A program made the translations under genes and the position numbers. The notes beneath the pieces are model-generated. The model had not been told where the DNA came from and did not search any database. It saw nothing but the letters and a program-made list of their open reading frames with translations. A DNA stretch of 64,000 nt from Chloroherpeton thalassium ATCC 35110 (lineage in GTDB: Bacteria > Bacteroidota > Chlorobiia > Chlorobiales > Chloroherpetonaceae), in NCBI RefSeq assembly GCF_000020525.1, contig NC_011026.1:2214001-2278000 (forward strand). Direction: 5' to 3'. Of the stretch, positions 4,051 to 27,616 are shown piece by piece (within the stretch, counting starts at the first letter, position 1; every line of letters begins with the position of its first letter).

Positions 4051-5034
4051 ATGGACAACTCAAAATTTCAATTGATAGGAGTCGCTGTTGGCGGAGCTAT
4101 CTTCTTTTTGGTTCTCTTTTACCTCGTTTCATTAGCGACCGGATACCAGCCGTATGCGGATGGGGTTTCGAGTTTTGCCGTTTTAAAAACGGTTTTTGGT
4201 TGGTTGGCTCTATTCTTGGTGGCCAGTTTTGTCACAATGATTATGGGAAGAATGTCCCAGCTGATCACCTCAGGATGGTTCATTGGCATTCTTGTCGGTG
4301 CGGTAATTATCGTTGGTCTTTCAGCGACATTTCTTTTCTCCACAGCAGGACCTCGTACCACAACCTTAGATGGTCAGGCAATTCGTTCCGTTGCGGAGTT
4401 GGAAGAGTTTAATACGGGTGGCGTGAAAAAGAAAGAAGTTACTGGCGAAGCTGCTGCTTTCAAAGAAACTTTTGAAAAGCGTTGCAATAAGTGCCACACC
4501 ATGAAATCTGTTGAAAGCACTTTGGTTACCAAGTACGTGTCTAAAAATGAAATTGGTAAAGCAGTAAACATGATGGCAAGCTTCCCAAACTCAGGTATCT
4601 TGCCTGAGGATGTTCCAAACATCACGGCTTACTTGAATGCACTTTATGGCGTAGATGGAAAATCAGCCGCGCCAGCTAAAGAAGAGCCAGCCGCCGCGCC
4701 AGCATCCGGTGCTGATGCAGCCGCGCCAGCTAAAGAAGAGGCTGCTTCTTTTGACGCAACGGCCATCAAGGCTGAATTGAAAAATTATGACACAATAGCC
4801 GGTGAAGATCTTTATAATGCTTCTTGCGCAATGTGCCATAGCACTGGCATAAGCGGTGCTCCGAAAGTTGGTACAGCCGGAGATTGGTCAAACAGAATGC
4901 CTCAAGGCGTTAAAGAAATGGCCAAGAAGTCTATTGACGGCTTTAACTCCATGCCAGCTCGTGGTGGCAACCCATCTCTCTCTGATGAGCAAGTTAGCAA
5001 CGCCGTAGCATTCATGGTTGACGCAAGCTTATAA
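4051..5034 (+). CDS. pscC: Photosynthetic reaction centre cytochrome PscC fused to a cytochrome c555-like domain
   Basis: A 327-residue membrane cytochrome. Three membrane helices (about residues 9-30, 46-66, 77-98) are followed by RTTTLDG...IRSVAELEEF, a segment I recognise from Chlorobium PscC (cytochrome cz). A first haem site follows at CNKCH (145-149), with Met174/175 before FPNSGI as likely axial ligand. That is where PscC normally ends. Here an Ala/Pro-rich linker (about 202-235) leads to a second class I c domain with CAMCH (259-263), GAPKVG and a Met ligand in SMPARGGNPSL (Met301). This domain closely resembles soluble cytochrome c555, the electron donor to PscC. It should pass electrons to the P840 reaction centre from the periplasmic side. 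There is no clear Shine-Dalgarno site. The gene is monocistronic and ends at a strong terminator. Confidence 0.9.
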   Translation: MDNSKFQLIGVAVGGAIFFLVLFYLVSLATGYQPYADGVSSFAVLKTVFGWLALFLVASFVTMIMGRMSQLITSGWFIGILVGAVIIVGLSATFLFSTAGPRTTTLDGQAIRSVAELEEFNTGGVKKKEVTGEAAAFKETFEKRCNKCHTMKSVESTLVTKYVSKNEIGKAVNMMASFPNSGILPEDVPNITAYLNALYGVDGKSAAPAKEEPAAAPASGADAAAPAKEEAASFDATAIKAELKNYDTIAGEDLYNASCAMCHSTGISGAPKVGTAGDWSNRMPQGVKEMAKKSIDGFNSMPARGGNPSLSDEQVSNAVAFMVDASL

Positions 5035-5055: not shown

Positions 5056-5090
5056 AAAAAGACTGCCATCAAGGCAGTCTTTTTTTTTTT
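5056..5090. terminator. Bidirectional intrinsic terminator between pscC and tsaC
   Basis: A stem GACTGCC/GGCAGTC (5061-5067 with 5073-5079, loop ATCAA) is flanked by an A-run on the left and a T-run (5080-5090) on the right. It can therefore stop the rightward pscC transcript and the leftward tsaC transcript. The two genes converge on it. Confidence 0.92.
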
Positions 5091-6373: not shown

Positions 6374-6883
6374 CTACGCGGTGTATTGGCAAATCAGTTG
6401 GATCAATTCTTCTTTATTGGCGCGAGAAATTTCGCGTCCTTGTATTGGCAATCCTTCAACTTTTCTGGCCATCCGTCGCAAATCTTCAACCGTGTATTGC
6501 TTCAGTGTTTCTGAGGACGGTGCTAAGTCAGAAGAAGGTGCTTGGCTTAGGTTTGAGCCATCGTGCTCAGCAGGTGCTGCGAGCGGTTTCTTTTTTTTGC
6601 TGTCAATACGAACGAAAGCAAGTGTATCGTGAATGCCTTTATCGGGCCGAGCAATCACATGGGCTGAAACTAAAACTCCGACACGTTGAGCGGCTGCTGC
6701 TCCTGCATCCACGGCAGCTTGAACAGCAGCAACATCGCCCGTAAGTTTTATCGTGATTAATGCACCATCGACCCGATCTTTAGAAATTAGCCTAACATCA
6801 GCCGCTTTGAGCGCGGCATCTGCTGCTTCAATGGCGGCAATTAAGCCCCGTGTCTCGATTAATCCTAGTGCAAGTTCCGACAT
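6374..6883 (-). CDS. Bacterial microcompartment shell protein (BMC-H) with Rho_N/SAP-like C-terminal tail
   Basis: A 169-residue protein whose first 95 residues are a single BMC domain (LGLIETRGLIAAIEAADAAL, later GAAAAQRVG and SAHVIARP). It should form shell hexamers. The loop at the pore position reads KDRVDGALITI, unlike the Gly-rich pore loop of its neighbour, so this hexamer probably has a different or narrower pore. A low-complexity linker (about 96-125) leads to YTVEDLRRMARKVEG...NKEELIQLI (about 129-167), which fits the helical SAP-like Rho_N fold, a nucleic-acid or protein binding module. It is the second gene of a two-gene shell operon, 55 bp after the first. No encapsulated enzyme is encoded nearby. 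Confidence 0.88.
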   Translation of the reverse strand: MSELALGLIETRGLIAAIEAADAALKAADVRLISKDRVDGALITIKLTGDVAAVQAAVDAGAAAAQRVGVLVSAHVIARPDKGIHDTLAFVRIDSKKKKPLAAPAEHDGSNLSQAPSSDLAPSSETLKQYTVEDLRRMARKVEGLPIQGREISRANKEELIQLICQYTA

Positions 6884-6914
6884 GTAAACGCATGAAATAA
6901 TTAAATATCAAACC

Positions 6915-6928
6915 CCCGAATCTTCGGG
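6915..6928 (-). other. Hairpin between the two shell-protein genes
   Basis: A perfect inverted repeat CCCGAA-TC-TTCGGG lies in the 55-bp gap between the two shell genes. It has no T-run long enough for a strong terminator. It could protect the upstream message or weaken read-through, so that the canonical shell protein is made in excess of the tailed one. The role is inferred. Confidence 0.45.
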
Positions 6929-6938
6929 AAACCAAAAT

Positions 6939-7214
6939 TTACTTCTTAGGAAGGATCGCTTCAACTTCCGAATGCGGACGCGGAATGACATGGACGGAAA
7001 CTAATTCGCCAACGCGTTGAGCGGCTGCTGCCCCTGCATCGGTTGCTGCTTTAACAGCGCCCACATCGCCGCGAACCATAACCGTTACAAAACCGCCGCC
7101 AATAGTCTCTTTGCCTATCAAGTCAACGTTCGCCGCTTTAACCATCGCATCAGCGGCTTCGATGGCGCCGACAAGTCCTTTGGTTTCTATCATTCCAAGA
7201 GCATCCATTGACAT
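6939..7214 (-). CDS. Bacterial microcompartment hexameric shell protein (PduA/EutM/CsoS1-like)
   Basis: A 91-residue single BMC domain of canonical length. [20 protein letters not shown] opens the fold, [17 protein letters not shown] carries the Gly-rich pore loop (IGGG), and [21 protein letters not shown] ends it. It is expected to build the hexagonal facets of a protein shell, with the pore admitting small polar metabolites. A good ribosome site (GAGGAG, the complement of 7225-7230) lies about 10 bases before the start, unusual in this AT-rich, SD-poor genome and consistent with high expression. The tailed shell gene follows at 55 bp. The pentameric vertex protein and the core enzymes are not in this window. 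Confidence 0.95.
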
Positions 7215-25906: not shown

Positions 25907-27616
25907 CTATTTCTTTGTTTTTTTCTTCTTTTTCTTTTTGAACCCGGAGAAGGTTGACGATTGCGCTGTTTTTGGCGAGCTACCTTCTTGCGTTCCTTCA
26001 GCTATTTTTCGTGCTTCGTAAACAGGTGTTTCTTCAGCAGGTTTTTGCTCAGGTTTCTTAGCCGGTTCAGCCTTTTTGGCATCAAAAGCCGGTTTAATGT
26101 CTGATGATTTTTGGTGTTCTGCTTTCTTGTTTCCTGAAGGCTTCATGGCGCCATGAGATTTAGCTGGCTCGGGCTTTTTCTCAGCGACGACAGGTTTAAC
26201 CGGCTCAGGTTTCTTTTCCTCGACGACGGGCTTAACCGGTTCAGGTTTCTTTTCCTCGACGACAGGTTTAACCGGTTCAGGTTTCTTTTCCTCGACGACG
26301 GGCTTAACCGGTTCAGGTTTCTTCTCCTCAACGATAGGTTTAACGGGCTCGGGCTTTTTCTCAGCGACGACGGGCTTAACCGGTTCAGGTTTCTTTTCCT
26401 CGACGACGGGCTTAACCGGTTCAGGTTTCTTTTCCTCGACGACAGGTTTAACCGGTTCAGGTTTCTTTTCCTCGACGATGGGCTTAACGGGCTCGGGCTT
26501 TTTCTCAGCGACGACGGGCTTAACCGGTTCAGGTTTCTTTTCCTCGACGACAGGTTTAACCGGTTCAGGTTTCTTTTCCTCGACGATGGGCTTAACGGGC
26601 TCGAGTTTCTTTTCCTCAACGACAGGTTTAACCGGCTCAGGTTTCTTTTCCTCGACGACAGGTTTAACCGGCTCAGGTTTCTTTTCCTCGACGACAGGTT
26701 TAACGGGCTCGGGTTTCTTTTCCTCAACGACGATAGGTTTAACTGGCTCAGGCTTTTTAATTTGAAGTGTAGAAGAAATTGCACCACAGCGCTGAGCAAG
26801 TTCATCAAGCAGTTCAATGGTCGCGGGTTCGAGCTCGCGAGGTAAAGAACGTGTTAGAGAAGTAGAGAGCGCCATATCAAAAACAACATCGCCGACTCGA
26901 AGTCCAAATGGCTTATCGTAGCCATCACTAACTTCCTTATAAGGAAATTGGCCGTTCGTTTTTTGGTTTAAGGCTTCAAAAAACCAAGCGGCGTCGTTAT
27001 AAGAGGCGGCATCTTTCGCATTGTCGGAAGTAAAATCGTTTAAAAACGAAATCATTCCAGTTAGCTCAAACAGCTCGCTTTCCTGAATCAATTGCTTGAG
27101 CTCTTCTTTGGATGGATAAGCCCCGAAATTCATCCAGTTGAGCAAAGACGAAACCACAGGCAACTGTGTCATTGCGTTAGTGTCTGCAATTTCAGGCGCA
27201 ATGAAAAGAGATGGCTCGTTTAAAATTCCTTGTTTTTCAATGTTGCCAGCATCCGGTGTTTTCATCAAAAACACATTGGTTTTTGGATCGGTGAACACTT
27301 CCAGCAGGGCGATGTATTTACAACCAAGTCCATGTCCTATCCAAAAAGTGGGTAACTCAGCCAAAGCTGGCACTTCCTGGCGAACCTTGTCGCGTTCTTC
27401 AAGCAACGCTTCGGCTATACCAGCATGATTAAATCCAAACTGAAACGGAATAGCGACGATTGAATACTCTGCGTTGTATAAGTTTTCCAAAAAGTAATCG
27501 TAAGATACGGTTGGAATTTGGCCGAAGAGTGGACTCCCATAAAATAAAATAACGCCTTTTGGCTTCGGATGCTCGGCTACCCAGCTTTTGGATATCCGCA
27601 TATAGTCGATACGCAT
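25907..27616 (-). CDS. DUF1350-like alpha/beta-hydrolase-fold protein with Pro/Lys repeat tail
   Basis: A 569-residue protein in two parts. Residues 1-275 resemble DUF1350, known from cyanobacteria and plastids (PKGVILFYGSPLFGQIPTVSY, YSIVAIPFQFGFNHAGIAEA). In hydrolases of this fold the nucleophile elbow is GxSxG; here it reads GHGLG (94-98), so the catalytic serine is missing. Residues about 276-480 are sixteen 12-residue repeats (KPEPVKPVVEEK) plus one degenerate unit. The tail continues with Lys/Pro/Ala-rich sequence and ends in a lysine run. There is no signal peptide, so it is probably cytoplasmic. The repeats look like a stiff polyproline spacer of the TonB type. Function unknown. Confidence 0.75.
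   Translation of the reverse strand: MRIDYMRISKSWVAEHPKPKGVILFYGSPLFGQIPTVSYDYFLENLYNAEYSIVAIPFQFGFNHAGIAEALLEERDKVRQEVPALAELPTFWIGHGLGCKYIALLEVFTDPKTNVFLMKTPDAGNIEKQGILNEPSLFIAPEIADTNAMTQLPVVSSLLNWMNFGAYPSKEELKQLIQESELFELTGMISFLNDFTSDNAKDAASYNDAAWFFEALNQKTNGQFPYKEVSDGYDKPFGLRVGDVVFDMALSTSLTRSLPRELEPATIELLDELAQRCGAISSTLQIKKPEPVKPIVVEEKKPEPVKPVVEEKKPEPVKPVVEEKKPEPVKPVVEEKKLEPVKPIVEEKKPEPVKPVVEEKKPEPVKPVVAEKKPEPVKPIVEEKKPEPVKPVVEEKKPEPVKPVVEEKKPEPVKPVVAEKKPEPVKPIVEEKKPEPVKPVVEEKKPEPVKPVVEEKKPEPVKPVVEEKKPEPVKPVVAEKKPEPAKSHGAMKPSGNKKAEHQKSSDIKPAFDAKKAEPAKKPEQKPAEETPVYEARKIAEGTQEGSSPKTAQSSTFSGFKKKKKKKTKK
26155..26760. repeat. 36-bp coding minisatellite
   Basis: Sixteen tandem 36-bp units plus one degenerate unit, each encoding KPEPVKPVVEEK with small changes (I for V, A for E). 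Variant units recur in the same order (VVEEK, VVAEK, IVEEK), which suggests duplication of multi-unit blocks. The array keeps several frames open on both strands, so the long frames opposite it are by-products. Confidence 0.95.

Follow-up and report, generated by a model that had tools for sequence, protein, structure and literature searches.

The only three-helix PscC found in the genome of the green sulfur bacterium Chloroherpeton thalassium carries, behind its cytochrome cz domain and a linker, a second haem domain of the carrier type, and the only three-helix PscC found in the other Chloroherpetonaceae genome searched is built in the same way. The fusion is confirmed as a conserved, family-specific variant of PscC with firm anatomy; that the attached domain serves as an electron donor may be called a well-motivated proposal. 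No earlier description of a PscC-haem-domain fusion was found in the open literature, to which, with little of the subscription literature, the search extended. How the special pair in homodimeric type I reaction centres receives its electrons is still under debate, both as to parallel or serial operation of PscC and as to the docking site of each carrier. A PscC that bears its carrier by nature keeps donor and acceptor together on a single polypeptide. Transfer from haem to haem and from haem to P840 can then be followed with no mobile partner involved, and cryo-EM has a better-defined object in such a protein than in the mobile cz domain by itself. Variation of PscC at the level of families also matters in its own right, since most structural statements on green sulfur bacteria rest on C. 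tepidum.

Architecture of the fused PscC

The gene lies within the window, the 64-kb stretch of DNA analysed here (bases 2214001-2278000 of the single-contig, 3,293,456-base genome), where it is surrounded by unrelated genes and forms one unbroken frame (Table 1). Residues 3-197 match the PscC family PF10643 with 125.6 bits (E 2.7e-36; curated Pfam cut-off 27.1), the best solved match of this part being C. tepidum PscC (7uea_C, E 1.7e-31), and hydropathy places three hydrophobic segments inside residues 4-100, in a membrane part where SGWF follows GRMSQLIT. Residues 250-322 match PF13442 (E 9.4e-19). The protein has two CxxCH motifs, one in each haem domain, and both are predicted to bind haem covalently; the single-haem form, in which the chain stops after cz, is thus not what C. 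thalassium possesses, a second CxxCH domain being present at residues 245-325. A first-pass annotation, made from the letters alone, had described a PscC part ending near residue 200 and joined by an Ala/Pro-rich linker to a second haem domain with the motifs CAMCH (259-263), GAPKVG and SMPARGGNPSL; every element of this description was recovered in the one frame. Met301 aligns with the methionine of the MPAKGG motif in cytochromes c555/c556 and is accordingly predicted, by family resemblance, to be the axial ligand of the second haem.

The cz domain is basic (net charge +3, residues 126-200) and the tethered domain acidic (-3, pI 4.8). Terminator-like matches in the region number nine, versus 1.7 in shuffles, and the strong one directly behind the stop codon indicates that transcription of the fused gene stops there. 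An AlphaFold model of the fusion, built from two sequences, reached a mean pLDDT of 46.8, at which its geometry is unusable.

Table 1. Features of the fused pscC gene (window coordinates) and of two further genes for cz-like proteins (locus coordinates)
Feature	Position	Strand	Basis or remark
Fused pscC gene	4051..5034	+	PscC + linker + c555/c556-type haem domain; 327 aa; ATG, TAA
PscC membrane part, residues 1-100	4051..4350	+	hydropathy; PF10643 and 7uea_C alignment
PscC (cytochrome cz) haem domain, residues 133-200	4447..4650	+	alignments
CNKCH haem-binding motif of cz, residues 145-149	4483..4497	+	sequence
Ala/Pro/Glu/Lys-rich linker, residues 201-240	4651..4770	+	16 Ala in 40 residues
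Tethered c555/c556-family haem domain, residues 241-327	4771..5031	+	Pfam, structure matches, tree
CAMCH haem-binding motif of tethered domain, residues 259-263	4825..4839	+	sequence
Met301 of SMPARGG, predicted axial ligand of second haem	4951..4953	+	alignment
Intrinsic terminator, 12-pair stem and T run	5056..5084	+	directly 3' of stop codon
WD40 protein with cz-like domain	L042:1641-3185 (C. thalassium, ~3.240 Mb); L045:2118-3644	+, +	CNRCH motif
Protein with two cz-like domains	L043:2929-3564 (C. thalassium, ~3.170 Mb)	-	

Conservation and distribution in the Chlorobiales

In a PF10643 profile search across 394 genomes of the phylum, the same fusion appeared in another genus, represented by the metagenome-assembled genome of Chloroherpetonaceae bacterium isolate PL23b_bin.36 (G083; contig JANQGG010000003.1). 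This protein of 337 aa is 58% identical to that of C. thalassium and its gene has different neighbours. By part, the identity amounts to 70% for the membrane segment, 49% for cz, 28% for the linker (201-232) and 60% for the C-terminal domain; for the latter, a dN of 0.31 against a saturated dS of 3.5 in this two-genome comparison indicates purifying selection. The net charges in G083 are -6 for the tethered and +2 for the cz domain. That two separate genes had been joined by an error of assembly or annotation, an outcome which the first-pass annotation had itself named as fatal to its reading, has a practically negligible probability: no support for it was found, and against it stand the single open frame in a single-contig genome, the identical architecture in an independently assembled genome at 58% identity and with other neighbours, the selection acting on the C-terminal domain, and a terminator that is present only downstream of the second domain. 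A recent fusion confined to one strain is likewise ruled out, as both Chloroherpetonaceae genomes searched carry it.

The survey of PscC length that had been proposed at the outset returned the fusion in two of 98 genomes of the order, these two being the family's only genomes searched. The c555/c556 family is represented in 2/2 Chloroherpetonaceae, in 85/86 genomes of the large family f2, which by its content corresponds to the Chlorobiaceae, and in 0/9 and 0/1 genomes of the families f3 and f4. In the Chlorobiaceae, PscC, soluble c555 and lipoprotein c556 are separate proteins: all 27 PscC proteins inspected stop after the cz domain, the longest open frame among the matches listed measures at most 292 aa, and most of the loci inspected hold a tandem pair, one gene encoding a c-556-type lipoprotein and the other a soluble c555 whose signal peptide is of the ordinary kind.

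PscC architecture thus differs between families within the Chlorobiales. The PscC proteins of f3 (L036-L041, L112-L119) and f4 (L120/L123) are also two-part but differently built, with a membrane part, a middle domain devoid of CxxCH, an Ala/Pro linker and a cz-type domain as the only haem domain. PF10643 runs co-linearly from the membrane part on through the middle domain, which suggests that the latter is a cz that lost its haem, possibly beside a duplicated one; the match in a profile comparison with cz is, however, weak (E 0.0044, probability 8%).

Identity and origin of the tethered haem domain

Among solved cytochromes, residues 245-325 are closest to c-555 (4j20; 84 bits, 5.6e-23), followed by c-556 (8hn3; 68 bits, 5.5e-18) and, at lower scores, by ScyA (56 bits, 2.8e-14), the SorB-type c551 (53 bits) and cytochrome c5 (51 bits, 1.2e-12). 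An unrelated c5-type identity, the other result that would have spoken against the first-pass annotation, is therefore ruled out, c-555 and c-556 outscoring ScyA, c551 and c5. Each Chloroherpetonaceae genome contains one other c555/c556 gene, and both encode lipoproteins (MARLFMALSLCVVMLSACGKK... and MSRFIVTLCLSGVLLSACGGD...); the one in C. thalassium, located at 881831-882094, has the lipobox LSACG. The fused domain lacks the lipobox cysteine that anchors c-556, and no separate start followed by a signal peptide precedes it within the PscC frame.

A tree built from 59 domains joins the fused ones to the Chloroherpetonaceae lipoproteins (97/87) and puts these four together beside c556 (97/87), which makes the c-556 clade the nearest Chlorobiaceae clade. 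The tree rests on 91 columns, too few to decide between c555 and c556, and AU tests rejected neither fused+c555 (p 0.478) nor lipoprotein+c556 (p 0.152). As the best tree places the domain with the lipoproteins while a grouping with c555 is not rejected, c555/c556 family is the safe name on the strength of these comparisons; the original assignment to c555 specifically agrees with the best solved match and goes further than the tree allows.

With respect to parentage, an ancestral c555/c556 pair may have been split by the capture of a soluble c555 gene, so that c555 joined pscC and c556 stayed behind as a lipoprotein. The scores of 84 versus 68 bits agree with such a course, as does the gene content, since a family that has the lipoprotein and lacks the soluble c555 would then have the same two-gene complement as the Chlorobiaceae, and the AU tests permit both groupings that it requires. 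The best tree, however, joins the fused domains to the lipoproteins of their own family and sets the pair beside c556, and the capture of c555 is accordingly regarded as a tentative scenario, somewhat more doubtful than probable.

Candidate electron sources in the C. thalassium genome

The cytochrome inventory was drawn from family searches with PF10643, PF13442 and PF00034, and hence covers the cytochromes of these three families. PF13442 and PF00034 together matched the fused PscC, the c556-like lipoprotein, FccA (lipobox MAGC) and one more lipoprotein, and at the thresholds of these two families no soluble c555-type or other class I carrier was found in the genome. The search for a free c555, suggested by the first-pass annotation, therefore ended with a relative that persists as a lipoprotein and with no soluble form. 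The gene for PscA (PF00223 match at 1659247-1659702, in a 751-aa frame) lies at ~1.659 Mb next to a frame for a PscB-like 4Fe-4S protein. A Rieske gene adjoins a cytochrome b gene, and FccB, the lipoprotein FccA-type cytochrome, SoxZ and SoxY are encoded in a row (L087:816-3306, minus strand, ~0.756 Mb).

In C. tepidum, c-556 carries electrons from Rieske/cytochrome b, and c-554/555 those from thiosulfate oxidation, to PscC (PMC11108878). No SoxB exceeded the cut-off in the C. thalassium genome, and the Sox-to-c555 thiosulfate route is thus unsupported; this counts against the suggestion that the fusion could alter how thiosulfate electrons enter. Rieske/cytochrome b and flavocytochrome c are present. 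Some sulfur handling remains, given the SoxYZ pair beside FccAB. Alternative complex III as a donor is unsupported, the long one of two NrfD-type matches residing in a molybdopterin-oxidoreductase operon. COX1 had no match in the C. thalassium genome; the relative G083 does carry it.

Proposed electron path to P840

The fused PscC, the only reaction-centre cytochrome found in C. thalassium, would be anchored to the PscA core by its three helices and would expose to the periplasm two haem domains joined covalently. Reduction of P840+ would fall to the inner (cz) haem, as it does elsewhere among green sulfur bacteria, and the outer domain, on its flexible linker of ~40 residues, would act as captive donor to cz, being itself reduced by Rieske/cytochrome b or flavocytochrome c, whether in one step or by way of the free lipoprotein cytochrome. 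If each reaction centre holds two copies of PscC, like that of C. tepidum, there would be four c-type haems instead of two. We infer haem loading, electron order, kinetic benefit and stoichiometry in this scheme, and consider the serial order from the outer haem via cz to P840, fed by Rieske/cytochrome b or FccA, to be probable, if by no means assured.

Several observations bear on this order. The low identity of the linker (28% over 201-232) next to a conserved C-terminal domain (60%) speaks for it. The surface of PscA to which cz docks is negatively charged (PMC10968294), and with an acidic tethered domain and a basic cz this favours transfer from the tethered haem to cz and on to P840 over direct docking to PscA. 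Net charge gives a rough indication at best, since the c555 of C. tepidum (+8) works with a cz that is itself basic. Two cz residues are reported to contact PscA in C. tepidum (PMC10968294); Lys168 is kept as K161, whereas Arg181 is not kept, which tells against the scheme. Alternatively, the linker might let the outer domain swing over to P840 and reduce it without the help of cz, two haems then competing for one site. The linker and a flexible cz tether would provide the reach, and cz of C. tepidum is itself mobile, with one cz docked at a time (PMC9529944, PMC11108878); in view of the acidic character of the tethered domain in both genomes and the negative PscA surface (PMC10968294), such a parallel donor appears quite improbable. 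A further alternative takes the outer domain for a docking arm and electron store that serves Rieske/cytochrome b or FccA near the reaction centre and hardly affects the rate of P840 re-reduction. Going by the account of Tsukatani 2006 given in PMC3842273, soluble c-554 is not essential in C. tepidum, and fused cytochrome domains elsewhere do not always raise turnover (PMC13324648), both of which would suit such a role; the sequence holds nothing to separate it from serial donation, and we rate it as unlikely.

If the serial order applies, the tether would remove the encounter between carrier and cz, and the encounter by which the tethered haem is re-reduced would remain, one place upstream. 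The claim that electron transfer to P840 becomes independent of diffusion was therefore overstated, being sound for the step from carrier to cz and not for the re-reduction of the tethered haem from outside. Among copper nitrite reductases, those that bear a cytochrome c on a linker of 36 residues work more slowly than those that lack the fusion (PMC13324648), which shows that a tether need not speed transfer. A broader proposal would have the whole c-type path into P840 membrane-tethered in the Chloroherpetonaceae, with no soluble class I carrier, with FccA and the c556-like cytochrome as lipoproteins, and with a reaction centre of four haems, to which every PscC contributes a donor that electrons must pass in series. 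This is possible, albeit on balance rather doubtful; were it true, type I reaction centres would have a third way of arranging their donor side, next to mobile carriers and PscX/PscY.

Comparison with known systems

C. tepidum PscC (cytochrome cz, cyt c-551; 7uea_C, 3a9f; PF10643), with its three N-terminal transmembrane helices (PMC9529944), aligns over its full length with the fused protein and shares the three helices and cz, but stops after cz at ~206 aa, whereas C. thalassium has ~130 further residues with the second haem domain. Cytochrome c-555/c-554 (CycA, CT0075; 4j20) has the CxxCH and MPA(K/R)GGN motifs in common with the tethered domain; it is, however, separate, soluble, basic (+8) and tied to thiosulfate oxidation, in contrast to a domain that is tethered, acidic and encoded in a genome with no SoxB over the cut-off. 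Cytochrome c-556 (CT0073; 8hn3) belongs to the same domain family and likewise holds its haem domain at the membrane on an Ala/Pro-rich linker, with a lipid as anchor where C. thalassium employs a reaction-centre subunit.

Natural fusions of an enzyme with cytochrome c are exemplified by caa3 oxidase. In three-domain copper nitrite reductases, too, the redox partner is linked to its acceptor, by 36 residues in RpNiR (PMC13324648). Both are catalytic oxidoreductases, whereas the C. thalassium fusion is a subunit of a photosynthetic reaction centre. The homodimeric type I reaction centre of Chloracidobacterium thermophilum offers a parallel of another kind, two serial haems of PscX/PscY feeding P840 (PMC9751088); these are two separate monohaem polypeptides reported to be without substantial similarity to PscC, in contrast to the one PscC chain of C. 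thalassium.

Further observations

Domains resembling cz were also encountered in other proteins (Table 1). Both Chloroherpetonaceae genomes encode a WD40 propeller protein of seven repeats whose C-terminus is a haem domain like the cz of PscC (CNRCH), and C. thalassium has a protein of 211 aa that contains two cz-like domains, of which the first shows CDEGCH, an unusual CxxxCH motif, and the second CNGCH. Elsewhere in the window of this green sulfur bacterium, two adjacent microcompartment shell genes (6374-7214, minus strand; PF00936, E 3.3e-26 and 1.7e-30) were noted, one of them with a long C-terminal extension, as was a frame of 569 aa (25907-27616, minus strand) whose middle consists of a long run of near-identical EEKKPEPVKPVV repeats.
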